The notes under the pieces were generated by a model that was not told where the DNA came from, ran no database searches, and saw nothing but the letters and a program-made list of their open reading frames with translations. A program made the translations under genes and the position numbers. Below are positions 1,194 to 15,210 of a DNA stretch of 15,703 bases, in pieces. The stretch covers positions 1-15,703 of the forward strand of contig JAFGFO010000435.1 of assembly GCA_016931085.1 (NCBI GenBank), written 5' to 3'. This stretch comes from Thermoflexales bacterium. Its GTDB lineage: Bacteria; Chloroflexota; Anaerolineae; Fen-1058. Every line of letters starts with the position of its first letter. Positions within the stretch are counted from its first letter, which is position 1.

Positions 1194-3864
1194 GGGGCAG
1201 CCATCAGCCCTGGCGTTGCTTGCGCCGCTCGCTGCCGATGCGCGTGCCTTGGATGGTGAATGGCGTGTGGCGTTCGCCAACACGCCGGCGGAGGATTGCG
1301 AATACGCCGCCGCGGAGATCGACGACTCGAATTGGGAACGGGTTCGCCTGCCGCATTTGCGCCAAGCGAGCGTCGGGCGCGACACGCTGTGGTATCGCCA
1401 TCGCTTTTCACTTGAATCTCTGCCGCATGACGCACACACGCTCTTGCGATTCGGCGGCGCGTTTTACGATACGTGCGTTTGGCTCAACGGCGTCGAATTG
1501 GGTGCGCACCAGGGCTATTTTCAACCCTTTGGTTTTGACGCCGGCGATCAGTTGAAGGTGGGCGAGAATGTCTTGGCCGTGCGCTGCCGTTTCCCGGTCG
1601 AAGCCGGCGCGCTCAAGCGTAAAACGGCGGTGGCGGGCATCTTTGCCGATTGGGATTGCAAGCCGTACCCCTCAGCCTATTATCCGAACTTGCCTGCGCC
1701 GCACGAGTGGACAGTGCCGCTTGGCCTGTGGCGGCCGGTGTACCTACAGGCCGCGGACGATGTGCTCGTCGAGTCGTTCAATGTTTTTGCTGAGGCGATC
1801 AACCCGCGCTGGACTGAGGGCACAGACTTGGCCAACGTGCGCGTGGTGCTGCAACTGCGCTCGCTCCGCGCCGCGCCCACCGTGCAAAAGGCGCGCGTCA
1901 GAATCGAGATTGCGCCTCACAACTTTGACGGCCCAGCAGTTGCCAAGGATGACTGGGAAATCGCGTTAGGTGGCGCGCCTTGTCACCGCGTCGAGCTCGG
2001 GCTGAGCCTGCCGCGGCCGCGCTTGTGGTTCCCGTGGACACACGGGGCGCCGGACCTGTATCGCGCCACGCTGTGGGTTGAAAGCGAGGGTGGTGCGAAG
2101 CACGAACTCGTGCGGGCCTTTGGCGTGCGCACGATTCAGGCGCTCATTGACGAGCAGCGTTGGGAGTGGTGGCTGAATGGGCGGCGCATTTTCCCAAGGG
2201 GCAGCAACGTCATTGCGGATTTCTATCTCGACCGTCTGAGCAGCGAAGGACTGAGCCACGACCTGGCGCTGGCGCGCAAGGCGAACCTTGACCTGCTGCG
2301 AGTGCACGCGCACATCGGCTCATCCGAATTCTACCAGTTATGCGACGAACAGGGCCTCATGGTGATGTGCGACTTTCCGCTGATCTGGACCTACGCGCAC
2401 GATTTGCCGCCGGAAGAACGAGAGGCATTTCGCGCCAGTGTTTTGCGACAAGTGGAGGACATGGTCGGATTGCTCGGCTCGCATCCCAGCATTGTTCTGT
2501 GGTCCATCCATAACGAGTCGCCCTGGACGCCCGATGCGAGTTTTCTGGGCGACGACGTGCACACCTCAGAGGCGAATCGCCAGCTTGACGAAGAGGCGGC
2601 CCAGCGTGTGCGTGCCCTGGATGTGACGCGGCCGACCATCACGGCGTCGGGACACTATGACCGGCACGTGTATAACGGCTGGTACACGGGCAATTGGCGC
2701 GACACGCGCGACCTGCGCCCAGCTTTCCCGACCGAGTTTGGGGTGCAGGCGCTGCCGAGCCTTTACTCGCCGGTTTGGGCCTCGCTCAACGAGACCGTGG
2801 ACCTGAATTGGCCTGTGGACGTTGACGAGCCGGCCTGGGCGCACGCCGGCTACCAGTCGGTGTTTTGGGTCAGCCCCGGCGTGGGGGCGCCATCGCAGTA
2901 TGCGACGCTGGCCGAGTACGTCCAAGAGAGCCAGGCGTATCAAGCGTTCTACATTCGTTACACGATCGACCAATGGCGCCGCCGCAAGTTCCAGCCGGCC
3001 GGCGGCTATATCCATTTTCTTTTCACCGATGGCTGGCCGGCGATCTCCTGGGCCGTGCTCGACTATTACCGTTTGCCCAAGGCCGGCTATCGTGCCCTGG
3101 CCGAGGTCTCGCGCCCGGCGCACGTGTGCGTGGATCTCGAGGACGGTTACAAGGTCGAGGGCGCGTTCCACCTGGTTTACGGAGAAGGCGCGCGCTTCAA
3201 GGCGAACTTGTATGTGGTCAATGATGACTATGGGCTGGGCGGGCGTGCTCAAGTTCGCTGGTGGATCGAGCCACGGCGCGGATGGCTGCGCGCCTGGCTG
3301 CGGAGGCTGCTTGCGCCGCGCCTTACGCTCGAATTGCCGGGCGCGGATGAGGGCGCGCGCTTGGTCAAGTCGATTGACATCCCGCTGCGCCAATCGGGCG
3401 AGTACACTTTCCGCGTGCGCTTGATCCAAGGTGGCCACGTGCTCGACGAGAATCATTACGACTTGCGGGTTGGCGCGGCACAAGCCAGACGGCGTGCGCC
3501 GCGCCGCGTGCCGGGCTTTTTAGTGGGGCGTGTGTACGAGTTCGGCAGCTTGCGTCACACCGCCGACGGTTTTGCGTTTCGATTGCACAACCCGGCCATG
3601 CCTGTGCTGCTTCAGCGTGTGGCCGAGCTGCGCGTGGACGGAGAGTTAATCAGCTCAGCGCGCGTAGAGCTGGTTCGCGGCGGGCACTCGCGCCACCTGT
3701 CGACCGTCACGCCCGAGTCGCCGCTCGAGTTCTCCCCCGGTGAATACCTCGCAGTGGTGGTACGCGACCATCGTCTGCCGCTCGGTGCGCACGAAGTGGA
3801 GGCGACGGTCCAGTTCCTCGGCTTGGGGGAACTCACAGCGCGCTGGCGTGACCGGCTGGTGTGA
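1186..3864 (+). CDS. Glycoside hydrolase family 2 (beta-mannosidase/beta-galactosidase-like)
   Basis: Retaining exo-glycosidase of the GH2 superfamily, 892 aa from the chosen start. Order of domains: N-terminal jelly-roll sugar-binding domain (about residues 25-190, with WLNGVELGAHQGYF), Ig-like sandwich (about 195-315), TIM barrel (about 325-620), then C-terminal beta domains. The acid/base Glu lies in LWSIHNESPW (E444) and the nucleophile Glu in FPTEFGVQALP (E517), both in the expected GH2 order. The barrel segment around LCDEQGLMVMCDFP resembles beta-mannosidase-type GH2 members, but substrate cannot be set from this. No signal peptide is seen, so it probably acts in the cytosol on imported oligosaccharides or glycosides. 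ATG 1186 was chosen because AAGAGGA (1174-1180) lies 5 nt before it; an in-frame ATG at 1159 lacks such a site. It overlaps the glycosyltransferase stop by 8 nt. Confidence 0.9.
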   Translation: MREGQPSALALLAPLAADARALDGEWRVAFANTPAEDCEYAAAEIDDSNWERVRLPHLRQASVGRDTLWYRHRFSLESLPHDAHTLLRFGGAFYDTCVWLNGVELGAHQGYFQPFGFDAGDQLKVGENVLAVRCRFPVEAGALKRKTAVAGIFADWDCKPYPSAYYPNLPAPHEWTVPLGLWRPVYLQAADDVLVESFNVFAEAINPRWTEGTDLANVRVVLQLRSLRAAPTVQKARVRIEIAPHNFDGPAVAKDDWEIALGGAPCHRVELGLSLPRPRLWFPWTHGAPDLYRATLWVESEGGAKHELVRAFGVRTIQALIDEQRWEWWLNGRRIFPRGSNVIADFYLDRLSSEGLSHDLALARKANLDLLRVHAHIGSSEFYQLCDEQGLMVMCDFPLIWTYAHDLPPEEREAFRASVLRQVEDMVGLLGSHPSIVLWSIHNESPWTPDASFLGDDVHTSEANRQLDEEAAQRVRALDVTRPTITASGHYDRHVYNGWYTGNWRDTRDLRPAFPTEFGVQALPSLYSPVWASLNETVDLNWPVDVDEPAWAHAGYQSVFWVSPGVGAPSQYATLAEYVQESQAYQAFYIRYTIDQWRRRKFQPAGGYIHFLFTDGWPAISWAVLDYYRLPKAGYRALAEVSRPAHVCVDLEDGYKVEGAFHLVYGEGARFKANLYVVNDDYGLGGRAQVRWWIEPRRGWLRAWLRRLLAPRLTLELPGADEGARLVKSIDIPLRQSGEYTFRVRLIQGGHVLDENHYDLRVGAAQARRRAPRRVPGFLVGRVYEFGSLRHTADGFAFRLHNPAMPVLLQRVAELRVDGELISSARVELVRGGHSRHLSTVTPESPLEFSPGEYLAVVVRDHRLPLGAHEVEATVQFLGLGELTARWRDRLV

Positions 3865-4725: not shown

Positions 4726-6030
4726 CTACATGCCCATTCCCTTGAAGGGGTCTACCCAGGCCTCTAAGGCTGCTTTCAACTCAGGAGACTCCTTCGCCTC
4801 CTCCTCCAGGGAACGGCCCTGCAGCGTGGCCTGGATCGCCTGGCGGAAAGCCCGCGCGCCGGCGACCGGTCCCTGTGGGTGAGCGTGGATGCCGCCGCCG
4901 GAGCCGATGACGATGTCCGGTCCCAGGTCCTTGATCACGCTGGGCACCATCTTGGGCGTGATGCCGCCGCTGGGCATGGGGAAGGTCGGCTTGAGCTGAT
5001 AGAGCGGGAAGCTGAGGTTCTGGGCCACCCGTTGAAATTTTTCCGGCAGCACGGGCGCCTTGCCGTAGGGAGCCGGGAAGACGACGATGTCTGCCCCGGC
5101 CAGGCGAGGCAGTTTGCCCAAGACCAGGTGAGAGCTGATGCCGTGCCACTCGGAAGCATACAGCGCCCCGGCCACATCCATGTGCGCCAGGATGGGCACG
5201 TTGATGGCAGGGTCCTCGGCCAATGCCCGCAGGACCGGGAAGCCAACCGCCAGGTAGTTGACCATGATCGCGTTGCAGCCCAGCTCCACCGCCCGGCGGG
5301 CGTTCTCAAAGACCTTGGGCACCTCGTCCGTGACGTTGACGGTGTACAGCGTGTGCTCGCCGGTCTGTTCGTAAACCTGCCGCTCCGCCTCCATGTAAAG
5401 CTTGACCCGCGCCTGGATCTCGTTGAATGGCGCGTTGGCCAGCAGCTCGTCGTCCTTGATGATGTCGCATCCACCCGTGGCGGCGGCGCGGAACAGCTCC
5501 ACGCCTACTTCCGGCGTGTAGCCGGTGCAGGGCTTGATCATGTTGTTCAGAAGCGGCCGGCCCTGCACGCCCAGGCGCTCCCGCACGCCCTTGATGCCGA
5601 ACTTACAGCCCTGGAATCCGGCGACGTATTTTTCTGGGAAGCGGATGTCCAGCACCTTGATTCGCCCCGCCATCGAAATGTTACCGATGACGGTGGTCAA
5701 GAGCATCGGGATCTGCGAGCCAAAGTTGAGCTGGGGGAAGGCGACCTGGATGATGTAATCGCGCTTTTCCACCTCGTGCGGAACCATCCACTCGTAGTCA
5801 GGCACCTCGTAGACGCCGATGACTTTGGCCACGTGACAGCGGCGCACCTCGGGCGTCTCTCCCGGGACAGGTACCCACGTGCCGGTGGATTGCTCGATGG
5901 CCAGCGCGGGGGCCAATTGAGGCACCGGGATGCTCTTGGGATAGGATACCAGGTATGTGCCGATCACGTATTCGGAATAGTCCACCCCATCGGGCAAGGC
6001 GATGGGCAAGGATTGCACGTCTATCTTCAT
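4726..6030 (-). CDS. RuBisCO-like protein (form IV type), not a CO2-fixing RuBisCO
   Basis: RuBisCO large-subunit fold, 434 aa, acting on a phosphorylated sugar-like substrate. Alignment by eye with spinach RuBisCO gives these pairs. Retained: E60 (E46), T65-W66 (T51-W52), N123 (N117), K175 (K166 in NMIKPCTG), carbamylated K201 with D203/E204 (K192, D194, E195 in IIKDDELL), H294 (H283), K334 (K324), S379-G380-G381 (S354-G356 in MPSGGITP) and the G403-G404 region (IGSGGG). Replaced: K177 (C168), R295 (M284), H298 (A) and H327 (V317). The metal site and C1-phosphate site are therefore kept, while the second phosphate pocket is lost. Known RuBisCO-like enzymes enolise, isomerise or decarboxylate such substrates (MtnW, methylthioribulose-1-phosphate isomerase, OiaX). 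The start has AGGAGG 5 nt upstream. The upstream partner is an FGGY kinase 172 nt away. Confidence 0.9.
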   Translation of the reverse strand: MKIDVQSLPIALPDGVDYSEYVIGTYLVSYPKSIPVPQLAPALAIEQSTGTWVPVPGETPEVRRCHVAKVIGVYEVPDYEWMVPHEVEKRDYIIQVAFPQLNFGSQIPMLLTTVIGNISMAGRIKVLDIRFPEKYVAGFQGCKFGIKGVRERLGVQGRPLLNNMIKPCTGYTPEVGVELFRAAATGGCDIIKDDELLANAPFNEIQARVKLYMEAERQVYEQTGEHTLYTVNVTDEVPKVFENARRAVELGCNAIMVNYLAVGFPVLRALAEDPAINVPILAHMDVAGALYASEWHGISSHLVLGKLPRLAGADIVVFPAPYGKAPVLPEKFQRVAQNLSFPLYQLKPTFPMPSGGITPKMVPSVIKDLGPDIVIGSGGGIHAHPQGPVAGARAFRQAIQATLQGRSLEEEAKESPELKAALEAWVDPFKGMGM

Positions 6031-6035
6031 ATTAG

Positions 6036-6041
6036 CCTCCT
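6036..6041 (-). promoter_or_regulatory. Strong ribosome binding site of the RuBisCO-like gene
   Basis: AGGAGG on the - strand, 5 nt before ATG 6030, fixes the start of the RuBisCO-like gene and suggests efficient translation. Confidence 0.8.
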
Positions 6042-6046
6042 GTAGT

Positions 6047-6060
6047 TATATTGAAATATA
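6047..6060. promoter_or_regulatory. AT-rich 14-bp palindrome just upstream of the RuBisCO-like gene
   Basis: TATATT-GA-AATATA is a perfect dyad (6+2+6) ending 17 nt before the RuBisCO-like start codon and just upstream of its ribosome binding site. It is the most AT-rich spot in this arm. It could be an internal promoter -10 region or an operator giving the RuBisCO-like gene expression independent of the kinase. No convincing -35 box was found, so function is open. Confidence 0.35.
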
Positions 6061-6084
6061 GCAACTGCTCAGGTCAGAGCCTTA

Positions 6085-6232
6085 ATTTGCCACAGAGACA
6101 CATCCAATCCCTTACGGGGATTGGCGAGCACAGAGATTTTTAATATTTCTTTGTGTCCTCGCAGTTTGGCAAAGCCGAACTGATGCCTCTGTGGCTAAAC
6201 CTTTACGATGGCGAGTTCGGCTTCCGAACTGC
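6085..6232. repeat. Interspersed repeat cluster between kinase and RuBisCO-like gene
   Basis: The gap holds nested inverted repeats. The outer pair is TTTGCCACAGAGACA (6087-6101) against a near-complement ending at 6198 (TGCCTCTGTGGCTAAA). Inside are a perfect 8-bp hairpin (6104-6111 with 6117-6124) and a 9-bp hairpin with one wobble (6162-6170 with 6174-6182, loop AAA). A sister hairpin, AGTTCGG/CCGAACT (6214-6220 with 6224-6230), sits inside the kinase 3' end. The 'CCACAGAGACACAGAG' type is a familiar degenerate intergenic repeat of environmental bacteria, recalled rather than searched. Confidence 0.6.
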
Positions 6233-7780
6233 GGGCGCTGTCGCCTCCCGGCATTTGCGAAATCGCTTTTCGTTCACCTCCCGATAGAGTCCGCGCAGGC
6301 AGCCATAAAGCCGCCGGTAGGTCCTGTAAAGGTCCTCGTAACATTCGGCATTGCAGGCGTGTGGCTCGAACTCGCGCTCCACGCGGACGACCTTGCTGAT
6401 CGCCCCAAAATCGGGATACAGTCCCAGGCCGACGGCAGCCGTGAGGGCGATGCCGACCGCCCCGGCTTCTTGTGGATGAGCGACAGACTCGACTCGCCGG
6501 CATGTCACATCGGCGATGATCTGCATCCACGGCGCGCCCCGCGCCCCGCCGCCGATGACCCGCAGCACCGGCAGTGGAAAGCCAAATTCTTTCTCCACGA
6601 TCTCGATGATCCAGCGCAGGTTGTACGCCACGCCCTCGTAAACCGCGCGCAAGAGGTGCTCGCGGCTATGGTTGGCGCTCAGGTTGAAAAAGGTGGCCCG
6701 CAGCCAGGTGTCGTTGACGGGCGAACGCTCGCCGTACATCCACGGCGTGCAGACCAGGGAGTCGGAGCCGGGCGGCACCTCCTGCACTTTTTGATCCATC
6801 AGCGCGTAGACGTTGGGCACGTTCGGATCGGCCCGCTCGGCCCGGTAGAACTCGTCGGCGATCCACTTGAGGCACGCCCCGGCGGTCTCCATCTCCGCGA
6901 ACAACAGCGCCTTGGCCGGGTCGGCTGACTGCAGGCAAGCGACACCGTGGCGGCCGGTGGGGTTCTTACGGGTGATGACGCCTACCCAACCTGATGTGCC
7001 CAGGTAGATGTGCCCGGCTCCTTCGCTGGTTGCCCCGGAGCCGACTGCTGCGCCTTGAGCGTCTCCCCCGCCGCCAAAGACGGGCGTTCCCTCTAGCAGC
7101 CCGCACTCGTGCGCCGCTTGCGCCGTCAAGCCGCCCACCTGGTCAACCGAGCGCACCAGGGGTGGAAACTTGGCTTGATCCAAGCCAATGTAGCGAATGA
7201 TCCCTCGTAGCCAATCCTTTTTCTGCAAGTCGAAGCCTACCGCCGAGGCGCACGACCAGTCATAGACTTGCCGGCCGGTGGCCCGGTAGGTGAGGTAGCC
7301 GTTGACGTCCAGGAAGCACGTCATCCTCTGATAGATATCTGGCTCGTTCTCTTTGAGCCAGAGCAGCTTGGCCAGGCCGTCCTTGCCTGATAGTTCCGCG
7401 CCCGCGATGGCGGCAAAGATCCGCCGCCCCAAGAACTTGCGCATGATGCGCTCGGCCTGCTCCGGTGCGCGAGCGTCCAGCCAGATGATGGCCGGGCGGA
7501 GAGGGCAGCCGTCAGCACCCATGGGAACGATGCCCAGAAGCTGCGTGGCATGCGCGATGCCGAGGATCTCGCTTGGGGAGATCCCTGCCTGCTGTACGAC
7601 CTGGCGGGTGGTGGAGACAATCGCAGCCCACCAATCTTCAGGCTCTTGCTGCGCCCAATCGGGACGAGGATAGTGAATGGGGTAGGGGGTGAAAGCGGAA
7701 GCGCAGACGCTTCCGTCGGTCCCCACGAGCACGGCCTTGTTGCCACTGGTGCCGACATCGTGAGCGAGTAAATAGCCCAT
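6203..7780 (-). CDS. FGGY-family carbohydrate kinase (xylulokinase-like), first of two
   Basis: ATP-dependent kinase of the FGGY family, 525 aa, expected to phosphorylate a ketose, sugar acid or polyol in the cytosol. Visible landmarks: the N-terminal ATPase motif HDVGTSGNKAVLV with D8, WLDARAPEQ (100-108), the catalytic-Asp loop FGGGGDAQGAAVG (D240), the phosphate loop YLGTSGWVG, MYGERSPVND, and the C-terminal FGGY signature GGGARGAPWMQIIADV. The whole family length is present. I chose ATG 7780 over an in-frame GTG at 7801 because homology begins there and GGGAGG lies about 9 nt upstream. It is the first gene of the - strand arm and precedes the RuBisCO-like gene, so its product is a candidate substrate for that enzyme. 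The last residues (VRKPNS) are encoded by a repeat hairpin. Substrate is not assignable; xylulokinase is only the nearest general label. Confidence 0.92.
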   Translation of the reverse strand: MGYLLAHDVGTSGNKAVLVGTDGSVCASAFTPYPIHYPRPDWAQQEPEDWWAAIVSTTRQVVQQAGISPSEILGIAHATQLLGIVPMGADGCPLRPAIIWLDARAPEQAERIMRKFLGRRIFAAIAGAELSGKDGLAKLLWLKENEPDIYQRMTCFLDVNGYLTYRATGRQVYDWSCASAVGFDLQKKDWLRGIIRYIGLDQAKFPPLVRSVDQVGGLTAQAAHECGLLEGTPVFGGGGDAQGAAVGSGATSEGAGHIYLGTSGWVGVITRKNPTGRHGVACLQSADPAKALLFAEMETAGACLKWIADEFYRAERADPNVPNVYALMDQKVQEVPPGSDSLVCTPWMYGERSPVNDTWLRATFFNLSANHSREHLLRAVYEGVAYNLRWIIEIVEKEFGFPLPVLRVIGGGARGAPWMQIIADVTCRRVESVAHPQEAGAVGIALTAAVGLGLYPDFGAISKVVRVEREFEPHACNAECYEDLYRTYRRLYGCLRGLYREVNEKRFRKCREATAPAVRKPNSPS

Positions 7781-7830
7781 CGCTAGTTCCCTCCCTATCA
7801 CCTGTATCTAAACGCGGCACGATCTAGGGC

Positions 7831-7897
7831 GGTCGAAGACGACCTCACGCAGTTTTGGCCAAAGGCCAAAACTGCTTCGCTGAGGCTTTGCCGAAGC
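7831..7897 (-). promoter_or_regulatory. Structured 5' leader of the kinase/RuBisCO-like arm
   Basis: Three inverted repeats lie between the candidate promoter and the kinase start. A perfect 12-bp stem (7849-7860 with 7864-7875, loop AAA) can be extended by CCTCA/TGAGG (7843-7847 with 7881-7885). A second hairpin, GCTTCG/CGAAGC (7874-7879 with 7892-7897), and a third, GGTCG/CGACC (7831-7835 with 7840-7844), share bases with the extended form. They cannot all form together, which resembles an attenuator. No T-run follows, so a simple interspersed repeat is the alternative. Confidence 0.4.
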
Positions 7898-7907
7898 GCC
7901 TACTATC

Positions 7908-7936
7908 AGCATAGTACACTTTCTCATTTCGCGCAA
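7908..7936 (-). promoter_or_regulatory. Candidate sigma-70-type promoter for the kinase/RuBisCO-like arm
   Basis: On the - strand TTGCGC (7936-7931) and TATGCT (7913-7908) are separated by exactly 17 nt. The -10 matches the consensus at 4 of 6 positions and the -35 at 3 of 6. Transcription would begin near 7901 and give a leader of about 120 nt before the kinase ATG. This is a by-eye match only. Confidence 0.35.
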
Positions 7937-7988
7937 GCGGCGATTTGTGGTAAACTTGTAGTGGGTGTGGATAAAGAAGATTTTTAAT

Positions 7989-8100
7989 CACGAATGTCAC
8001 CAATTGGACGATAGCCCCCTTCGGGGCTCCGAAGCGGATGGCACGAATTGGGTTAAACAAAGAGACATTCGTGAAATTCGACTATTCGTGTCATTCGTGA
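7989..8100. repeat. ATTCGTG-type interspersed repeat upstream of the aldolase
   Basis: CACGAATGTC (7989-7998) is inverted perfectly at 8064-8073. Inside is a 6-bp hairpin AGCCCC/GGGGCT (8013-8018 with 8023-8028) that overlaps an alternative CTTCGG/CCGAAG stem (8019-8024 with 8029-8034). The motif ATTCGTG then recurs at 8084-8090 and 8093-8099. Such ATTCGTG strings are familiar degenerate repeats in environmental genomes. Together with the kinase leader and promoter, this accounts for most of the 351-bp gap between the divergent arms. No clear + strand promoter was found. Confidence 0.55.
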
Positions 8101-8131
8101 CTTATTTTCGAAGCAGACTAAGAGGTGCGCT

Positions 8132-8830
8132 ATGGGACAGTTTGACCTGGTCAAACAACGTGTTGTGGAGACGGCCCGCTTGTTGGTCGAAAAGGGCTAC
8201 CTGGAGGGCACGGGCGGGAATGTCTCCGTGCGGGCAGAAGGGCAGCCGGCCTTTGCCATCACCCCCTCGAATTATGATTACCTCAAGATGTCACCCGGCG
8301 ATGTGTGTGTGATGGACTGGCAGATGAAGGTCCTGGAAGGAACGCTGAAACCCTCCATTGAGGGCGGCATGCACGCCGCAGTGTACCAGGTGCGCGCCGA
8401 CGTGAACGCCATCATCCATTCGCACCAGGTCTATGCCAGCACGCTGGCCTTGATCGACGCGCCCATCCCGGCTCTTTTTGACGAACAGGTGCGCTATTTG
8501 GGGCGCTCGGTGGAGATCATCCCCTATGCGCCCTCGGGGACAGGCTTTCTGAAAAAGAACGTCCAGTCCAAAGTTCGAAATGGGCACAACGCTTACATCC
8601 TGAAAAATCACGGCGCGCTCGTCCTGGGCGCAGACACCGAGCGCGCAGTGCATAACCTGGGACTGCTGGAGAAATGCGCCCTGGCTTACTTGCTGGCGTT
8701 GTGCACCGAGCGCCAGGTATCCCGCATCCCGCTGGCGATACGCGAGATTGCCTTCGCCAAGCTGCGGGCGGATGAGAAGAAGTACGCGACACTTGCGCCT
8801 GCGCGCAGTGCAGGTGAACGTGATGCGTAA
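8132..8830 (+). CDS. Class II aldolase/adducin-family protein (FucA/AraD-like)
   Basis: Zinc-dependent aldolase or epimerase of the L-fuculose-phosphate aldolase family, 232 aa, near the usual length. Zinc ligands and catalytic base are visible: E77 in KPSIEGGMH, H96 and H98 in IIHSHQVYAS, and H160 in ILKNHGALV. The glycine-rich phosphate loop GTGGNVSVR (26-34) is present, so a phosphorylated ketose is the expected substrate, with retro-aldol cleavage to dihydroxyacetone phosphate and an aldehyde. AraD-type epimerases and MtnB dehydratases share these residues, so aldol cleavage is the likeliest, not the only, reaction. Start ATG 8132 follows AGAGG (8121-8125) by 6 nt. It is the first gene of the + strand arm, divergent from the kinase/RuBisCO-like pair, and 124 nt before the aminotransferase. 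Confidence 0.9.
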   Translation: MGQFDLVKQRVVETARLLVEKGYLEGTGGNVSVRAEGQPAFAITPSNYDYLKMSPGDVCVMDWQMKVLEGTLKPSIEGGMHAAVYQVRADVNAIIHSHQVYASTLALIDAPIPALFDEQVRYLGRSVEIIPYAPSGTGFLKKNVQSKVRNGHNAYILKNHGALVLGADTERAVHNLGLLEKCALAYLLALCTERQVSRIPLAIREIAFAKLRADEKKYATLAPARSAGERDA

Positions 8831-8863
8831 GGTGTAAAGTCACGTTTTACGTGTCATGTTTTA

Positions 8864-8935
8864 TTATCCGCTAATCTACGCGAATCTGCACAAATGATTA
8901 AAAATTAGTGAAAATTAGCGTGAATTCGCGGATAA
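8864..8935. repeat. ATCCGCGAATT-type interspersed repeat between aldolase and aminotransferase
   Basis: TTATCCGC (8864-8871) is inverted perfectly at 8928-8935, and CGCTAAT (8870-8876) at 8914-8920, so the 72-nt stretch forms an interrupted dyad. The AT-rich core contains repeated AAAATTAG units (8902-8909 and 8911-8918). The type is a common degenerate intergenic repeat in environmental bacteria, from memory. It lies inside a probable operon, so the transcript would carry it. Confidence 0.55.
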
Positions 8936-8954
8936 AAATTAATGGGAGGCTGCT

Positions 8955-10409
8955 ATGACCGACACTCAATCCTACGCCATCTCCGAATGGCACGACACGG
9001 ACGCGATCTATGCCCGGCTGAATGAGCTGGTCCGCCAGCCTCTCCGCCCCATCCGGCGCGACAGGATGCAAGACTTTCTCAACTATTATGAGACCCGCTG
9101 CGCCCGTTCCAAGGCGCTGACCGACGAAGCCAAGCAACTCATCCCCGGCGGCGTGCAGCACAACCTGGCGTTCAACTATCCTTTCCCGCTGGCCGTCGAG
9201 AAAGCGGACGGGGCCTATTTATGGGACGTGGATGGCAACCGCTACATTGACTTTTTGCAAGCGGGAGGGCCGACGGTGCTGGGCAGCAACTATGCCCCGG
9301 TGCGTGACAAGGTCTTGGAGATGCTGCAGTCCTGCGGCCCCGTCACTGGCCTGTTCCACGAATACGAGCTCAAGCTGGCCCAGTTGATCAACCGACTTAT
9401 GCCGTCCATCGAGATGTTTCGCATGCTGGGTTCGGGCACAGAGGCGGTGATGGCGGCGATCCGGGCGGCGCGGCTGTTCACCGGCAAGAAGAAGGTTATC
9501 AAGGTTGGTGGCGCCTATCATGGCTGGAGCGACCAGATGGTCTATAGTCTGCATATCCCTGGCACCCGCCGTATGGAAGCCAAGGGTATCCCGGCCGGCT
9601 GTAGCCACGACACACAAGAGTTTTACCCGAATGACCTGAATGCCCTGCGGCGGCTGATGACGCTCGACCGGCTGCGCGGCGGCACGGCGGCCGTCATCGT
9701 CGAGCCGCTCGGCCCTGAAAGCGGGACGCGCCCAATTCCACGCGACTTTAACAGAAACGTGCGCGAGCTGTGCGACGAGTTTGGCGCGTTGTTGATCTTT
9801 GATGAAGTCGTGACCGGCTTCCGCATCGGCATGGGCGGGGCGCAGGGCTACTTTGGCGTCAAACCCGATCTGACCGTGTTTGGCAAGTGCATCACCGGCG
9901 GTTACCCGATGGCAGGCGGGGTAGGGGGGCGGCGCGATGTCATGACGCGCTTCGCGGCCGGCATCGGCGGCACCGGCGAGCGCGCCTATATCGGCGGGAC
10001 GCTTTCGGCCAATCCGCTTTCGTGCGTGGCCGGCTATTACGCCCTGCTCGAAATGGAACGCACCCATGCCGCCATCATCGCCGGGCGAGCGGGCGACCAA
10101 TTGACCAAGGGGCTGCAAAGCATCATCGAGCGACTCAAGCTGCCGTTCGTGGCTTATAATCAGGGTTCGATCGTCCATCTCGAAACTTCGGGCGTGATGC
10201 TGCTCGACTTCAAGGACCCACTCAAGCTGATGCGCGAGCTCAAACCGCGCAAGCATATGATGGAAGAGATGGGAGCGGCCTACATGGCGCAAGGCCTCGT
10301 CACGCTGGCAGGCAGCCGCATGTACACCAGCATGGCGGATACAGACGAGGTGATCGGCGAAGCGTTGAAGGGCTTTGAGGCTGTGCTTTCGAGCGTCGAA
10401 GGGGTCTAG
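8955..10409 (+). CDS. Class III PLP aminotransferase, glutamate-1-semialdehyde aminomutase-like
   Basis: Fold-type I PLP enzyme, 484 aa. The Schiff-base Lys is K311 in TVFGKCITGGYPMAGG, the cofactor-pyridine Asp is D283 in LLIFDEVVTGFR, and the phosphate-binding loop reads LGSGTEA (158-164), the GSA-aminomutase variant rather than the GSAGNE-type loop of other class III enzymes. AYHGWSD (187-193) is also typical. A 60-residue N-terminal extension precedes the conserved GG, longer than HemL itself, and the gene sits among sugar-phosphate genes rather than heme genes, so a true HemL role is unlikely. It more likely moves an amino group onto or off an aldehyde or ketose-like compound of the pathway. 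Start ATG 8955 follows GGGAGG (8944-8949) by 5 nt. It ends 4 nt before the next gene's start, indicating coupling. Confidence 0.9.
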   Translation: MTDTQSYAISEWHDTDAIYARLNELVRQPLRPIRRDRMQDFLNYYETRCARSKALTDEAKQLIPGGVQHNLAFNYPFPLAVEKADGAYLWDVDGNRYIDFLQAGGPTVLGSNYAPVRDKVLEMLQSCGPVTGLFHEYELKLAQLINRLMPSIEMFRMLGSGTEAVMAAIRAARLFTGKKKVIKVGGAYHGWSDQMVYSLHIPGTRRMEAKGIPAGCSHDTQEFYPNDLNALRRLMTLDRLRGGTAAVIVEPLGPESGTRPIPRDFNRNVRELCDEFGALLIFDEVVTGFRIGMGGAQGYFGVKPDLTVFGKCITGGYPMAGGVGGRRDVMTRFAAGIGGTGERAYIGGTLSANPLSCVAGYYALLEMERTHAAIIAGRAGDQLTKGLQSIIERLKLPFVAYNQGSIVHLETSGVMLLDFKDPLKLMRELKPRKHMMEEMGAAYMAQGLVTLAGSRMYTSMADTDEVIGEALKGFEAVLSSVEGV

Positions 10410-10413
10410 CCGC

Positions 10414-11988
10414 ATGACTGACGAAACTGTTGTCCTGGCCCTTGACCTCGGCACGTCGGGCGCCAAAGTGGCGCTGGTCAGCGTTCACGGACATGTGTTG
10501 GGCTGGGAGGCCGAGCCTGTCAAGCTCGCCGTCACGCCCGACGGTGGGGTGGAACAATCACCCGAAGAGTGGTGGCAAGCCTTTTTGTCAGCGGCGAGGC
10601 GGCTGCTGGGCCGAGACCTGGTGGCCAAGCGCTCGATCCGGGCTGTCTGCTGTTCGACGCAGGGGGAGGGCACGCTCCCCGTTGCCGAGGATGGAAGCGC
10701 GCTGATGAACTGCATCCTGTGGATGGACATGCGCGGCGCGCCCTACCTGCACGAGCAGGCGCGCGGCGCCATCAATGTGCTCGGCGCAGATGTGTTCCGA
10801 GTGCTGCGCTGGATTCGCCTGACGGGTGGCATGCCATCCATGACCGGCAAGGACCCGGCGGCGCACATGCTGCTGGTGCGCGAGCGTTTCCCCGAAATTT
10901 ATGCCCGGACGTTCAAGTTCTTGAACGTGCTCGATTATATGAACCTGCGCCTGACCGGCCGCCTGGCGGCAACCTTCGATTCGATCTTGACCTCGTGGGT
11001 GACCGACAACCGCGACCCGGATGACATCCGCTACGATGCGCGGCTGGTGCGTGACAGCGGCATCGACGCCGAGAAATTTCCTGAAATTGTGCCCTGCACA
11101 ACCGTGCTCGGCACGCTGAGGGCGGACGTGGCCGGGCAGTTGGGGCTGGCGGCGGATGTGCAGGTGGTGGCCGGCTCGATCGACAACACGGCGGCGGCGA
11201 TCGGCTCAGGCGCGGTGGAGGATTTTAGCCCGCATTTGTACATCGGCACCTCGTCGTGGATTGCGGCGCACGTGCCGTTCAAGAAAACCGACCCTATCTC
11301 GTCACTGGCCTCTGTGCCCTGTGCCGTGCCGCATCGCTATTTGCTCACCGCTTTGCAGGCGACCGCCGGCGGCAACTTGACCTTTTTGCGCGACAACATC
11401 TTGTATCATCAAGACGAGCTGCTGCAAGAGGAGCGCGCGCCGGACGTTTTCAAGGTCATGGACAAGATGGCCGAGCAGGTGCCAGCCGGCAGCAATGGCG
11501 TGCTGTATACGCCGTGGATTTGGGGCGAGCGCGCGCCGGTGGACGAGCGCACCTTGCGGGCCGGGCTGTACAACCTCTCGCTCCATAACACCCGCGCCGA
11601 CATCATCCGCGCCTTTTTGGAGGGCGTGGCGTTCAATACCCGCTGGCTGCTTGCGCCGGTGGCCAGCTTCTTGGGACGTCCGGTGGAGGCGATCAATGTG
11701 GCAGGCGGCGGCGGCAATTCGGATGTATGGTGCCAGATTATGGCCGACGTGCTCGATGTGCCGGTGCGCCAGGTGCAGGACCCCATCCTGGCCAATGCGC
11801 GCGGCGCGGCGTTTATCGCCGCCGTGGGCTTGGGGGAGATCACGTTCGACGACGTCCCGGCCCTGGTCCAATTCAAGCGCACCTACGTGCCCGATCCGCG
11901 CAACCGGGCGGTTTACGACGAGCGCTTTGGCGTGTTCAAGCAGATTTATAAACAGATGAGCGGCGTGTACAAGCGTTTGAACGGCTAA
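10414..11988 (+). CDS. FGGY-family carbohydrate kinase, second of two
   Basis: A complete second FGGY kinase, 524 aa. Landmarks: LALDLGTSGAKVALV with D11, WMDMRGAPY (103-111), catalytic Asp D257 in AGSIDNTAAAIGSG, YIGTSSWIAAH, YTPWIWGERAPVDE, and the C-terminal signature GGGGNSDVWCQIMADV. It diverges clearly from the first kinase in the substrate half (for instance STQGEG here against ATQLLG there), so the two are unlikely to be recent duplicates and may act on different intermediates. ATG 10414 was chosen because GAAGGGG (10398-10404) precedes it within the end of the aminotransferase gene and homology begins here; an in-frame upstream ATG at 10375 would overlap that gene. The 4-nt gap upstream and 15-nt gap downstream indicate one transcript with the aminotransferase and transporter. 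Confidence 0.92.
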   Translation: MTDETVVLALDLGTSGAKVALVSVHGHVLGWEAEPVKLAVTPDGGVEQSPEEWWQAFLSAARRLLGRDLVAKRSIRAVCCSTQGEGTLPVAEDGSALMNCILWMDMRGAPYLHEQARGAINVLGADVFRVLRWIRLTGGMPSMTGKDPAAHMLLVRERFPEIYARTFKFLNVLDYMNLRLTGRLAATFDSILTSWVTDNRDPDDIRYDARLVRDSGIDAEKFPEIVPCTTVLGTLRADVAGQLGLAADVQVVAGSIDNTAAAIGSGAVEDFSPHLYIGTSSWIAAHVPFKKTDPISSLASVPCAVPHRYLLTALQATAGGNLTFLRDNILYHQDELLQEERAPDVFKVMDKMAEQVPAGSNGVLYTPWIWGERAPVDERTLRAGLYNLSLHNTRADIIRAFLEGVAFNTRWLLAPVASFLGRPVEAINVAGGGGNSDVWCQIMADVLDVPVRQVQDPILANARGAAFIAAVGLGEITFDDVPALVQFKRTYVPDPRNRAVYDERFGVFKQIYKQMSGVYKRLNG

Positions 11989-11990
11989 AC

Positions 11991-12006
11991 AGGAGGTGAT
12001 CATGTG
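11991..12006 (+). promoter_or_regulatory. Strong RBS and GTG start with abutting ATG-TGA
   Basis: AGGAGGTGAT (11991-12000) is an extended match to the anti-Shine-Dalgarno sequence. The first ATG after it (12002) runs straight into TGA (12005), so that ATG is a one-codon frame. The transporter frame opens with GTG at 12004, which overlaps it. The GTG start is therefore forced, and the minimal ATG-stop could slightly dampen initiation. Confidence 0.75.
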
Positions 12007-13203
12007 AGCAATCAATACCGTCTCTATGGCTACCGCTGGGTGGTGCTGGTGGTTTTCATGGCCATCAACCTGGCCATCCAGATGCTGTGGATTGGCTACG
12101 CGCCGATCACGGGGCCCGCTGCCGCGTTTTACGGCGTGAGCGATCTGCAAATCGGCATGCTGGCGATGTCGTTCATGATCGCCTTTATCCCACTTTCCAT
12201 CCCGGTTTCGTGGGTGATAGACACCTATGGGTTCCGCGTTGCGGTCAGCATCGGCGCGGTGATGATGGCTGTGTTTGGCCTGGCGCGCGGATTGGCAGGA
12301 GCGAATTACCCGCTCGTCTTGGGCAGCACAGTGGGCATTGCCATTGCCCAGCCCTTTCTGCTCAATGCGTGGACCAAAGTGCCTGCCAACTGGTTCGCCA
12401 TCGAGGAGCGCGCCACGGCTGTGGGGCTGGTGACGCTGGCCAACCTGGTCGGTACGGCGCTCGGCATGGTGCTGACGCCGATCCTGATCGAGAGCATACC
12501 CATCCCCACGGTGCAGTTGATATACGGAGGGATTGCCGCGCTCTCGGCAACCTCCTTCGTCATCCTGGCGCGTGAGACTCCGCCCACCCCGCCATGTCCA
12601 CCCGGCATGGAAGCCCGCGCCTTGATGCTCGATGGCCTGAAGCACGCGCTCACCGTCAAGTCCTTTTGGCTTTACCTGCTGGTCTCGTTCATCGGCCTGG
12701 GGATTTTCAACGGCATCACCACTTGGGTGGAGAACATTATCCGGCCGCGCGGCTTTACTCCCACCGATGCTGGGACACTCGGCGCGCTCTTGCTGGTTGG
12801 CGGGATCCTGGGCGCGGTCGTCATTCCGCCGTTCTCGGACAGGCAGCGCAAGCGCCAGCCTTACCTGCTGTTGGGCATCACGCTCGCCATTCCGGGGTTG
12901 ATCGGACTGACGTTTGCCACGTCCTACTGGCTGTTGCTCGTTTCGGCGTTTTCGATGGGTTTCTTCCTGGTGAGCACGAGCCCCATCGGCATGCAGTATG
13001 CCGCCGAGGTGACCCATCCCACCCCGGAGGGTACGTCCAATGGCTTGATTCAATTGTTCGGACAGGCCTCGGTCGTGTTCGTGTACATCATGGAAGCCAT
13101 GAAAACAAGCGGTGGCGCATTCACACCCGCGCTGTTGCTGGCGGTCGGGCTGCTGGGGGTGAGCGCGCTGGTTGTTACGCAGATGAGAGATCCTGCGCGC
13201 TGA
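12004..13203 (+). CDS. MFS transporter with 12 predicted helices
   Basis: Major facilitator superfamily permease, 399 aa, inner membrane. Twelve hydrophobic stretches can be counted, at about 10-32, 47-71, 76-97, 101-122, 137-161, 168-188, 219-242, 257-276, 286-305, 307-329, 346-364 and 373-392. A central cytosolic loop (about 190-218) lies between helices 6 and 7. The motif-A positions show as SWVIDTYGFR after helix 2 and FSDRQRKRQP after helix 8. The W-x-x-D-x-x-G-x-R form recalls the FLVCR/SLC49-like branch of MFS, a weak assignment. As last gene of the + strand arm behind a kinase, its likely job is uptake of the substrate of this pathway by proton or sodium symport. Start is GTG 12004 with an excellent ribosome binding site. 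It ends only 16 nt from the converging FG-GAP gene. Confidence 0.9.
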   Translation: MSNQYRLYGYRWVVLVVFMAINLAIQMLWIGYAPITGPAAAFYGVSDLQIGMLAMSFMIAFIPLSIPVSWVIDTYGFRVAVSIGAVMMAVFGLARGLAGANYPLVLGSTVGIAIAQPFLLNAWTKVPANWFAIEERATAVGLVTLANLVGTALGMVLTPILIESIPIPTVQLIYGGIAALSATSFVILARETPPTPPCPPGMEARALMLDGLKHALTVKSFWLYLLVSFIGLGIFNGITTWVENIIRPRGFTPTDAGTLGALLLVGGILGAVVIPPFSDRQRKRQPYLLLGITLAIPGLIGLTFATSYWLLLVSAFSMGFFLVSTSPIGMQYAAEVTHPTPEGTSNGLIQLFGQASVVFVYIMEAMKTSGGAFTPALLLAVGLLGVSALVVTQMRDPAR

Positions 13204-13219: not shown

Positions 13220-14209
13220 CTAAGCTGCCCGGATGATCACCGGAAGAAAGATGAATTTCAGCACGGCCACATGCAGTGTGACTGTAGCGGTCTGGGAGGC
13301 AGCCATCCCCTCGTGAGCGGTGTAGGTGAAATGGTCGACGCCAATGTAAGTAGCCGTGGGCGTGTAGGTGAAAGAGCCATCCGGCTTGAACGCCAGCTCG
13401 CCGTTGCCCGGCCCATCCTCCAAGGTTGCCGTCAGCGAGTCACCGGCGCTGATGTCGTTCGCCAACACGCCTGGCGCGGCGACGACCAGGACAGAGTCTT
13501 GGTCAACCAGGAACATGTCATTTACGGCTATCGGGTCGCCCGCCGCAGAAAACACGTAGGCTGAGCCTTGCTGCTGGTTGCTGCCAATGCGATCTTGATA
13601 CGCCCCGGCCACGATGGTGCCCCCGCTGATGGATACAGAGCGGCCGAACAGATCGTTCGCCGCGCCATCCGAGGCCACTACTTTCTTGACCAGTCCCCAG
13701 TTGTCCGTTCCGCCCTGGTTGCGTGCAAACACGTAGGCTGCGCCTTGGAAGATGTTAACGCCGTATGCTCCAACCGCGAGTGTGTCTCCGTTGATGGACA
13801 CGGAAGAGCCAAAATAGTCGCCTCTCTTGCTGTCGGACGCTGTCAGCTTTTTGACCAATCCCCAGTTGTCGGTTCCGCCCTGGTTGCGGGCAAAGACATA
13901 GACTGCGTTCGCGCGGTGCGCTCCGACGACGAGCGTGTCTCCACTGATGGATATCGAGATGCCAAAGTTGGTATCCGCCGCACCATCCGGGGCGACCAGC
14001 TTTTTGACCTGGCTGGCAGCCGTGATCGTCTCTTCGGCTTGAGGAAGTGATGGCCTGGTGGCTGCTGACCCGGCCTCGCTGCCGGCCTGGCTTGCGGCTG
14101 GCGGGGTGACATTGCACGTCAGCCCGACCAGCAGCATCATGACAAGCCACAGACGGCATAATCCTGTTTTGCTTGCGAGAGAACATTTAGCAGGCATGTC
14201 TTTTGTCAT
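13220..14209 (-). CDS. Secreted FG-GAP repeat protein with bacterial Ig-like domain
   Basis: Exported protein of 329 aa, role unknown; such proteins are commonly surface or adhesion proteins. A signal peptide with basic start and hydrophobic core (about 17-32, RLWLVMMLLVGLTC) is visible. A Cys at 32 suggests a lipoprotein, but the lipobox is not canonical (GLTC). Three FG-GAP-type repeats follow, each with a VKK..ASDG start, an FG.S(V/I)SI.GDT core and a YVF end; only three are present where a full beta-propeller needs about seven. Residues about 229-318 form a Big_9/cadherin-like Ig domain (AVNDMFLVDQD, PGVLANDIS, DGSFTYTPTATY). The C-terminus FIFLPVIIRAA resembles a tail I associate with exported Chloroflexota proteins. 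Its ATG overlaps the stop of the upstream SUMF1-like gene by 4 nt, so the two are translationally coupled. Confidence 0.85.
   Translation of the reverse strand: MTKDMPAKCSLASKTGLCRLWLVMMLLVGLTCNVTPPAASQAGSEAGSAATRPSLPQAEETITAASQVKKLVAPDGAADTNFGISISISGDTLVVGAHRANAVYVFARNQGGTDNWGLVKKLTASDSKRGDYFGSSVSINGDTLAVGAYGVNIFQGAAYVFARNQGGTDNWGLVKKVVASDGAANDLFGRSVSISGGTIVAGAYQDRIGSNQQQGSAYVFSAAGDPIAVNDMFLVDQDSVLVVAAPGVLANDISAGDSLTATLEDGPGNGELAFKPDGSFTYTPTATYIGVDHFTYTAHEGMAASQTATVTLHVAVLKFIFLPVIIRAA
13686..13900 (-). repeat. Intragenic 165-bp-period repeat in the FG-GAP gene
   Basis: Near-identical stretches begin at 13686 and 13851, 165 nt (55 codons) apart. Both encode the identical peptide YVFARNQGGTDNWGLVKK. 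A third, weaker unit starts near 14004. The near identity at DNA level indicates fairly recent duplication, and makes the gene prone to unit gain or loss by recombination. Confidence 0.75.
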
Positions 14210-15210
14210 CGCTCCACCCCCTTCGCGCCCTTTTCCTTAGCCTTTGCTTTGCTCGTCCCTGCTTTGGCCTCGACTTGAAAGCCTGGCCAGTGCTCGCACT
14301 GCCAAGCGTCTCTTACCGGTCGAAAGCCAATGTACATGGGGACGGCATGGCACACAGCTGTTTGGTAAGTGACCATATTGTAGTACCAATATGGCGGGCT
14401 GCTGTCTTTGACGGGATTAGCTTTCAAGATCGGTCCTTCGTTATTCGAGTTCACGACCTTTTCTATGGACATTGTCCATTCGGCCACATTGCCCACCATA
14501 TCCCATACCTCGTAGGGGCTGGCGCCCGCAGGATAGGCATCTACCGGCGTCTTCCACGTCTGGTCGCTTGTGTTCGGGGGGCGGCCTGGTGCATCTACGC
14601 TCTGGATAAAATTGCCTCGACTTGGATCCCACTTGTTCCCCCACGGATAAAGACGCCCATCCACACCACGGGCAGCCTTTTCCCATTCTGCGGCCGTGGG
14701 CAACCGTCCGCCCACCCAATGACAAAACAGGTCGGCGAACCCCCAATCGGCTTCTTCGGGGTAATCGGGCGGCTCGTACCCTGGCCATACCCGCCCCTTG
14801 CGCAAGCGTCGTTGGTGAGCATAGTGGGCAATAAACTCGTTTACTTGTTGGTGCGTCACCGGGAAACGGGCGATGTAGAAAGTATCCAACTTGACAACGC
14901 GCTGTGGCCTTTCATATTGCAGGGAAGCTTCTAGTTCAAGGATTCGGCCAAAATCTTGGTCCCGGGCCAGTTCGTTCTCCTCAGGGGGCAGATTCCACCC
15001 ACTGCCGACTTGATACTCTAGGTGCAATTTGCGCTCACGCCACAGGCGAAACTTTTCGACCACTCGCTCGGCGGCTGCTCGCTTGTGATCGTCGAACTGA
15101 TCCATGCCTGCTTCGGCGCGCACCCGGCTTCGGATATCGGCAATCTGTTGCTCAGAAAGCCCCATCAAGAACTCGCCAGCGGGGATTTCGACCCAGTCAA
15201 TGGTAATCAT
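14206..15210 (-). CDS. SUMF1/FGE-sulfatase-fold protein, probably not a formylglycine-generating enzyme
   Basis: Protein of 334 aa with the C-type-lectin-like FGE-sulfatase fold. Family motifs in order: DWVEIPAGEFLMG (5-17), ERPQRVVKLDTFYIARFPVT (100-119), VGGRLPTAAEWEKAARG (166-182), LYPWGNKWD (188-196), VGNVAEWTMS (239-248) and IGFRPVRD (294-301). A charged helical insert of about 80 residues splits the first two motifs, which are normally close together. The C-terminal region lacks the closely spaced catalytic Cys pair of true FGE (only C287 and C304 are present) and the usual GGSW, so sulfatase activation is unlikely. The tail is Lys-rich (KAKAKEKGAKG). No signal peptide is seen. No Shine-Dalgarno precedes ATG 15210; two ATTGATAT units stand there instead, so the message may be leaderless or weakly translated. 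It overlaps the FG-GAP gene by 4 nt. Confidence 0.82.
   Translation of the reverse strand: MITIDWVEIPAGEFLMGLSEQQIADIRSRVRAEAGMDQFDDHKRAAAERVVEKFRLWRERKLHLEYQVGSGWNLPPEENELARDQDFGRILELEASLQYERPQRVVKLDTFYIARFPVTHQQVNEFIAHYAHQRRLRKGRVWPGYEPPDYPEEADWGFADLFCHWVGGRLPTAAEWEKAARGVDGRLYPWGNKWDPSRGNFIQSVDAPGRPPNTSDQTWKTPVDAYPAGASPYEVWDMVGNVAEWTMSIEKVVNSNNEGPILKANPVKDSSPPYWYYNMVTYQTAVCHAVPMYIGFRPVRDAWQCEHWPGFQVEAKAGTSKAKAKEKGAKGVER

Follow-up and report, generated by a model that had tools for sequence, protein, structure and literature searches.

A RuBisCO-like protein family encoded beside FGGY kinases and amine-handling enzymes, and an aldolase operon that looks like its alternative

The window analysed here is the whole of a 15,703-nucleotide stretch of DNA from a Thermoflexales bacterium (contig JAFGFO010000435.1), and the system in question is a divergent cluster of six genes that includes a RuBisCO-like protein (RLP). 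According to the gene ends, the two halves of the cluster are separated by a divergent gap at 7781..8131. On the minus strand lies RLP itself (4726..6030, 434 aa; RuBisCO_large at 171.7 bits, Pfam cut-off 30.1; loop-6 lysine K324), with FK1 (6203..7780, FGGY_N/FGGY_C), a FGGY carbohydrate kinase of the FK1 clade, directly upstream. The plus strand carries ALD (8132..8830, Aldolase_II), a fuculose-phosphate aldolase-like member of the class II aldolase/adducin family and candidate retro-aldolase or decarboxylase; AT (8955..10409, Aminotran_3), a class III aminotransferase resembling HemL without the Arg of the NSPVRAF motif; FK2 (10414..11988, FGGY_N/FGGY_C), a second FGGY kinase, of the FK2 clade; and an MFS transporter (12004..13203, MFS_1), the putative importer of an amine substrate. 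The kinase start positions are those of de novo gene calling. All six genes scored well over the Pfam cut-offs for their families, and the genes, families and divergent placement given in the original prediction were thus confirmed. That prediction had also seen no DUF1537 kinase, mtnA/mtnK or cupin isomerase, and none was found by Pfam and NCBIfam among 10 of the 11 called window genes (all but the one at 13220-14209). Hereafter FK1-RLP is referred to as module A and ALD-AT-FK2-MFS as module B.

Models of narrower families were not reached. The XylB xylulokinase model gave 329.3 bits for FK1 and 244.7 bits for FK2, both under the NCBIfam cut-off of 380.25, and AT scored 279.0 bits on the hemL model (cut-off 527.3), with an alignment gap at the NSPVRAF Arg, which presumably has a role in HemL. 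The top NCBIfam models of ALD, those for fuculose-phosphate aldolase and ribulose-1-phosphate aldolase, were both under cut-off as well.

RLP was compared over a set of 81 loci, consisting of the window and the best 80 of 540 RLP relatives (59-89% identical to the window RLP). Genes were clustered at 35% identity and 60% length, and RLP was called in 81/81 loci. The RuBisCO columns were set by alignment to form I genes and to the RuBisCO genes of three archaeal genomes (one partial); residue numbers and catalytic or phosphate-site roles are those we assume for RuBisCO. Ten of the eleven catalytic columns checked are kept, with E60, T65, W66, N123, K175, K201, D203, E204, H294 and K334 invariant in all 81 RLPs, and the eleventh, K177, is Cys in all of them. 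In the second phosphate site, R295 is replaced by Met (80/81) and H327 by Val (81/81). As both columns are replaced, one phosphate site is kept. Together with the residues for enolisation and for the CO2 side, where we take the loop-6 lysine to act, this points to a keto substrate with a single phosphate, which may be decarboxylated.

The family is monophyletic in the RLP tree (85 tips, support 0.91; L073 as too short, the partial RuBisCO and one over-long comparator were excluded), sister to MtnW (0.98) and apart from OiaX, the RLP of apionate breakdown. It may presumably equal the 'IV-DeepYkr' group. An AlphaFold model (pLDDT 83, 15 sequences) found its best structure match in MtnW, at a TM score of 0.86. 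Identity with MtnW was nevertheless rejected, with 344.2 of 513.6 bits for TIGR03332 and 395.4 of 409 bits for NF007095, both below the NCBIfam cut-off. At the GKLSL position of the catalytic Lys of MtnW (Lys98, as we assume), the window RLP has Asn117, and Asn stands there in 81/81; in the alignment MtnW lacks both the N123 Asn and the loop-6 Lys. OiaX was rejected too, at 176.3 of 700 bits, below the NCBIfam cut-off and on a separate tree branch; it keeps the loop-6 Lys and R295 and has lost E60, W66 and N123. A DUF1537 (four-carbon acid sugar) kinase neighbour of the OiaX type was likewise dropped as a candidate, the window kinases being FGGY.

Among the matches listed, the loci whose RLP comes closest bear the titles Chloroflexota, Thermoflexia or Anaerolineae in the genome collection, and the loci as a whole carry titles from Chloroflexota, Caldiserica, Actinomycetota, Deltaproteobacteria, Thorarchaeota, Baldrarchaeota, Archaeoglobus and others. 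Plasmid records gave RLP matches in 367 cases, all below 60% identity; the best among the matches listed (25 of 367) was an mtnW at 41%. A kinase of the FGGY cluster, FK2 types included, occurs within 68 of the 81 loci and stands directly upstream of RLP on the same strand in 57. Such frequent adjacency indicates that the arrangement is not a matter of chance. Where more than 1.7 kb is available on both sides (n=55), the kinase is present in 50 loci and immediately upstream in 41. Several of the 13 loci without it end at contig edges, while L055, L060, L072, L075 and L076 have more than 2 kb on each side. In L072, RLP lies near a galactitol-type phosphotransferase system (PTS), zinc alcohol dehydrogenases and a PdxA-like gene that scored above the cut-off for pdxA. 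As a separate observation, a conserved gene of about 360 aa follows RLP directly in four Deltaproteobacteria-phylum loci (L151:6714-7787, L152, L153 and L155), and its L151 copy had no Pfam or NCBIfam match. A second, RuBisCO-type gene was also seen in genomes G025, G031 and G027, the last being that of the Baldrarchaeota locus L064.

A third gene links most of these loci to amine chemistry. Cluster c2 resembles saccharopine dehydrogenase (Pfam Sacchrp_dh_NADP), with carboxyspermidine dehydrogenase (8deb) as its closest match among solved structures, and cluster c5 is another class III aminotransferase. Over the 81 loci, c2 was found in 31, the AT family in 16 and c5 in 9, never two of the three together, and 25 loci had none. 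Within three genes of RLP the corresponding counts are 31, 14, 9 and 27. The AT family adjoins RLP as FK1-RLP-AT in Dehalococcoidia and as FK2-AT-RLP in five Deltaproteobacteria-phylum genomes and L079. At the genome level, where AT and c2 but not c5 were compared, 32 RLP genomes held AT (at least 45% identity) in 12 cases and c2 (at least 55%) in 14; both were present only in G028 (Fisher p=0.002, uncorrected for kinship). Several others of the 32 hold c2 relatives at a greater distance (31-37%), and in G016 and G018 extra c2 copies adjoin an FK2-type kinase with no RLP there. It is because a dehydrogenase from an amine-handling superfamily stands in for a pyridoxal-phosphate aminotransferase that we place amine chemistry in the pathway.

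The kinases, too, seem to be exchanged. In a tree of 91 sequences, FK1, FK2 and a third group are separate, although some deep branches are poorly supported (0.31 for the Deltaproteobacteria kinases). FK1 types accompany RLP, and also the aldolase without RLP (L104/G080). FK2 types accompany the aldolase, RLP (in Deltaproteobacteria) or c2. Since all four pairings of FK1 or FK2 with RLP or aldolase were found, the two kinases look like interchangeable parts.

Module B is an independent operon, usually in genomes without RLP. AT was searched in 400 genomes of the phylum of G001 (Chloroflexota, by the title of L001), with 14 hits at E<=1e-110; in 247 genomes of the phylum of L079 (titled Deltaproteobacteria), with 10 at 1e-100; and in 54 genomes of the Cryosericum phylum, with 4 at 1e-60. 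In the 14 Chloroflexota genomes, the examined stretches show the aldolase next to AT in 12, and contain a FGGY kinase in 12 and MFS in 11; the contig ends within AT in G166 and G224. Besides G001, 11 Chloroflexota genomes combine aldolase, AT and kinase (all three on a single contig in 10, split between two contigs in G476), and RLP (E<=1e-20) was found in 0 of these 11. Counting all 13 AT genomes besides G001, RLP occurred in one (G166). It was also found in 0 of the 4 Deltaproteobacteria genomes with the aldolase beside AT or its kinase, and two of the five FK2-AT-RLP genomes of that phylum have an aldolase in the examined stretch as well. In the Cryosericum phylum, G012 holds everything, G056 and G080 lack RLP but carry the aldolase module, and in G081 one contig bears AT and another an RLP (54%). 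Conversely, the 32 RLP genomes contain aldolase relatives of at least 46% identity in 5 cases, and any match at E<=1e-25 in 14. Both RLP and aldolase are present in the window, L020, G001, G006 and a few others. With the modules mostly in separate genomes, RLP and aldolase look mostly like alternatives. It was also observed that in L123 and L128 (families scanned for the L128 copies) the operon, ordered ALD-AT-MFS-FK2, is joined by a D-2-hydroxyacid dehydrogenase and a beta-hydroxyaspartate-dehydratase-like protein, with a trans-3-hydroxyproline-dehydratase-like protein beyond FK2.

These results bear on how the cluster was read in the original prediction, which had used both kinases, RLP and the aldolase in turn in one linear pathway. 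As the modules mostly occur apart, that scheme was rejected. Its expected neighbourhood, RLP with both kinases, the aldolase and AT, was seen in full only once among the loci examined, in Candidatus Cryosericum septentrionale (L020 = G012), where all six genes lie on one contig at 50-74% identity; G001 and G006 have most of both modules, not adjacent. Other parts were supported: family cut-offs, active-site residues and context set RLP apart from both MtnW and OiaX, its kinase partner is of the FGGY type, and amine chemistry belongs to the pathway, with AT, c2 and c5 replacing one another across loci.

The modules also share a type of regulator. TetR proteins at RLP loci (c21, 5 loci) are 41-65% identical to those at ALD operons (d4, 11 loci), whereas the best three pairs by E-value with an unrelated TetR cluster (c4) gave 23%. 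The palindrome CTTGACNNNGTCAAG occurs 12 times in 122 non-duplicate loci, where 0.09 sites would be expected. Four of the five RLP loci with c21 and six of the eleven ALD loci with d4 carry it, and the other two sites are in L040. Such a common TetR type and palindrome are more like substrate induction. In the window, the core TTGACNNNGTCAA has one match at 8142..8154 (0.02 expected; 4 of 200 shuffles reach the same), which is weak because it falls inside the first ALD codons. The divergent gap contains a perfect inverted repeat, AGTTTTGGCC-AAA-GGCCAAAACT, with 10-bp arms and a 3-bp spacer at about 7851-7873, possibly the operator for a regulator of other than TetR type.

Taken together, the modules look like one pathway with alternative last steps, because the AT family adjoins RLP elsewhere, all kinase, RLP and aldolase pairings occur, and a related TetR and palindrome are common to both. 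Our preferred reading, to which we give about even chances, is that both modules are catabolic and serve, as alternatives, a single amine-bearing polyol or polyhydroxy amino acid. We infer all reactions, their direction and the substrate from what was observed, namely gene content, modules, replacement pattern, related regulator, palindrome and active-site columns. The substrate would enter through MFS or arise inside the cell. AT would remove the amino group, a task that may fall elsewhere to the saccharopine-dehydrogenase-like NAD(P) enzyme or to another class III aminotransferase, and FK1 or FK2 would phosphorylate a terminal hydroxymethyl group. RLP would then enolise the keto-phosphate through its Mg/carbamate site and perhaps decarboxylate it, while the aldolase-family enzyme could alternatively form the same kind of enediolate, either enzyme yielding a product at the triose-phosphate level.

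As for the chemistry, our guess is that 2-amino-3,4-dihydroxybutanoate (4-hydroxythreonine type) might be converted to 2-oxo-tetronate, 2-oxo-4-phosphotetronate and finally dihydroxyacetone phosphate (DHAP) plus CO2, a substrate assignment that is unlikely to be exact. By analogy, one intermediate of the P-O-CH2-C(O)-CH(OH)-COO- type, usable by either enzyme, would explain the replacement of RLP by ALD. In the available parts of the sources, an RLP that decarboxylates 3-oxo-isoapionate-4-phosphate is known (PMC6302742), a bacterial bypass leads from 2-oxo-L-threonate to DHAP via the kinase 2-OtnK and 2-OtnC, and 3-OtnC, which has an Aldolase_II domain in E. coli, decarboxylates 3-oxo-4-phospho-L-threonate (PMC12540250). 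The bypass and the RLP decarboxylation indicate that either kind of enzyme could use one such intermediate. Four-carbon acid phosphates are also suggested by L072, whose PTS and PdxA-like gene lie in a locus where no FGGY kinase was found. Extended to the family, a still more tentative proposal is that a widespread bacterial and archaeal RLP, using a nearly complete RuBisCO site that includes the loop-6 lysine, takes CO2 from (or, in reverse, adds it to) an amino-acid-derived keto acid with a single phosphate. It would be the last of three enzymes on the way to triose phosphate and could be replaced by an Aldolase_II-family enzyme; we think this version, as a whole, rather less probable than its opposite.

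Several observations weigh against the catabolic reading. The 25 loci without c2, AT or c5 are a considerable share, and among the 27 lacking them within three genes, 15 have more than 1.7 kb on both sides. The exclusivity is confined to the three defined clusters: two aminotransferases, c5 and a HisC-like one, stand directly before FK1-RLP in the Baldrarchaeota loci L064 and L069, and L059 has c2 beside an AT relative of 29% identity. When the c2 limit is set to at least 49%, AT and c2 overlap in 3 of the 32 genomes (p=0.033, again uncorrected for kinship). The best matches of AT are glutamate-1-semialdehyde aminomutase models, and the chemistry of these enzymes takes place next to an aldehyde rather than on an alpha-amino acid. 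Many module A loci have no transporter of the MFS kind, which fits internal salvage better than uptake.

The case for common control meets objections of the same kind. No TetR was found among the scanned window genes, and the full 19-bp palindrome is absent from the window at up to 3 mismatches. An exact copy of the palindrome is missing from 5 of 11 ALD loci with d4 and from 1 of 5 RLP loci with c21, and the copies in L035 and L045 overlap the called start of TetR. The two L040 sites were dropped, since the same word is a dispersed repeat in its 1.4-Mb genome G020 (29 copies of the CTTGACTTCGTCAAG-type palindrome). In 21 other genomes there were 16 palindrome matches, 9 at modules (3 RLP, 6 aldolase) and 7 elsewhere, and the reversed word gave 10. 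A similar number is thus expected by chance in genomes, and position is what counts. Off the modules, the matches at G018:C120, G019:C41 and G196:C1 lie within long reading frames and those at G481:C59 and G001:C146 in or near gaps; no relatives of the queried cluster proteins were found in these five of the seven stretches (G476:C5 and G381:C16 were left out).

Among other explanations, the one that survives best is an amino-polyol route without any carboxylate. AT would give a ketose, the FGGY kinase a ketose phosphate, and ALD would cleave it to DHAP and an aldehyde, while RLP would instead isomerise the ketose phosphate to an intermediate of the pentose phosphate pathway, a keto-shift for which we take the Rhodospirillum rubrum RLP to be a precedent. 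The top models of ALD and XylB as the best kinase model, although under their cut-offs, fit such a route, as do the galactitol-type PTS and zinc alcohol dehydrogenases near the L072 RLP; ALD resembles true aldolases more than 3-OtnC, which keeps this route open at the expense of our own. Against it, the loop-6 lysine, presumed to serve the carboxylate/CO2 side, is kept in 81/81 and absent from MtnW, and the L123 and L128 operons carry amino-acid enzymes. We consider it possible, but on balance improbable.

A biosynthetic direction is doubtful, and more so than the amino-polyol route. Here kinase and RLP would make a keto-phosphate, which AT or the saccharopine-dehydrogenase-like enzyme would aminate to an amino sugar or amino acid. 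The amine enzyme does follow RLP in many module A loci (FK1-RLP-c2, FK1-RLP-AT), and MFS is seen in few loci of that order. However, MFS accompanies module B in 11 of the 14 AT-bearing Chloroflexota genomes, AT precedes RLP in the Deltaproteobacteria-phylum loci, and the common TetR type and palindrome are again more like substrate induction. An anaerobic variant of methionine salvage, in which RLP would act like MtnW as the enolase for methylthioribulose- or deoxyribulose-1-phosphate and the aminotransferase would make methionine, is very hard to believe: MtnW does come closest, as sister family in the tree and as the best match in structure, but RLP stays under both MtnW cut-offs, has Asn117 at the MtnW-type Lys and Lys rather than Ser in loop 6, and acireductone dioxygenase (PF03079) was found in 0 of the 32 RLP genomes (the window's own lies outside this set) and in 5 of 14 control genomes.

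Downstream of the cluster are a repeat-bearing protein (13220-14209) and an FGE-sulfatase-like protein (14206-15210), apparently unrelated to it. The glycoside hydrolase family 2-like protein encoded at 1267-3864 is oddly composed, in that its C-terminal end scores 42.7 bits on Pfam HMG-CoA_red_N (cut-off 27).

To our knowledge, few RuBisCO-like families have an assigned reaction. The family described here is broad, stands next to MtnW, keeps the CO2-linked loop-6 lysine and drops the second phosphate site, and it thus bears on how CO2 chemistry arose within the RuBisCO superfamily. Its partners, a carbonyl derived from an amine, a FGGY kinase and an interchangeable aldolase-family enzyme, narrow the search for its function, which three or four purified proteins would be enough to test directly. 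Among the papers listed from the openly licensed literature we found no account of an RLP with FGGY kinase, saccharopine dehydrogenase, aldolase or aminotransferase, and searches pairing RuBisCO-like with saccharopine dehydrogenase or with FGGY returned nothing, in agreement with the earlier statement that the combination matches no pathway that can be named. The route therefore looks undescribed, while its substrate, perhaps a polyhydroxy amino acid, is still a guess. According to the available parts of two papers, form IV functions are not fully understood (PMC11650866), and an actinobacterial RLP of unknown function has a different neighbourhood (PMC7325909).

Known systems resemble the two modules in part. 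With MtnW, the RLP shares the fold, the sister position in the tree, 38% identity to 2oem (the structure match), one phosphate site and the KDDE metal/carbamate motif; it differs in the Asn at the MtnW base column, in the loop-6 Lys and in its FGGY kinase and amine-enzyme partners. With OiaX it shares the loop-6 Lys and a place beside a sugar-acid kinase, while the one comparator locus has a four-carbon acid sugar kinase and no aminotransferase within 13 kb. For the aldolase, 5-deoxyribose salvage offers a likeness, with an aldolase that is reportedly of class II. That three-gene cluster runs through phosphorylation, isomerization and aldol cleavage, and the available part of its description (PMC6079011) names no amine step; no isomerase gene was seen in the window. 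As far as the available part of its source goes (PMC12540250), L-threonate catabolism, by LtnD/2-OtnK/2-OtnC or LtnD/OtnI/3-OtnK/3-OtnC, starts with a dehydrogenase on L-threonate, uses OtnK kinases and ends with a fructose-bisphosphate (FBP) aldolase or Aldolase_II protein instead of an RLP, and yet it has in common with the route proposed here a 2-oxo-tetronate, a kinase and the formation of DHAP with loss of CO2.

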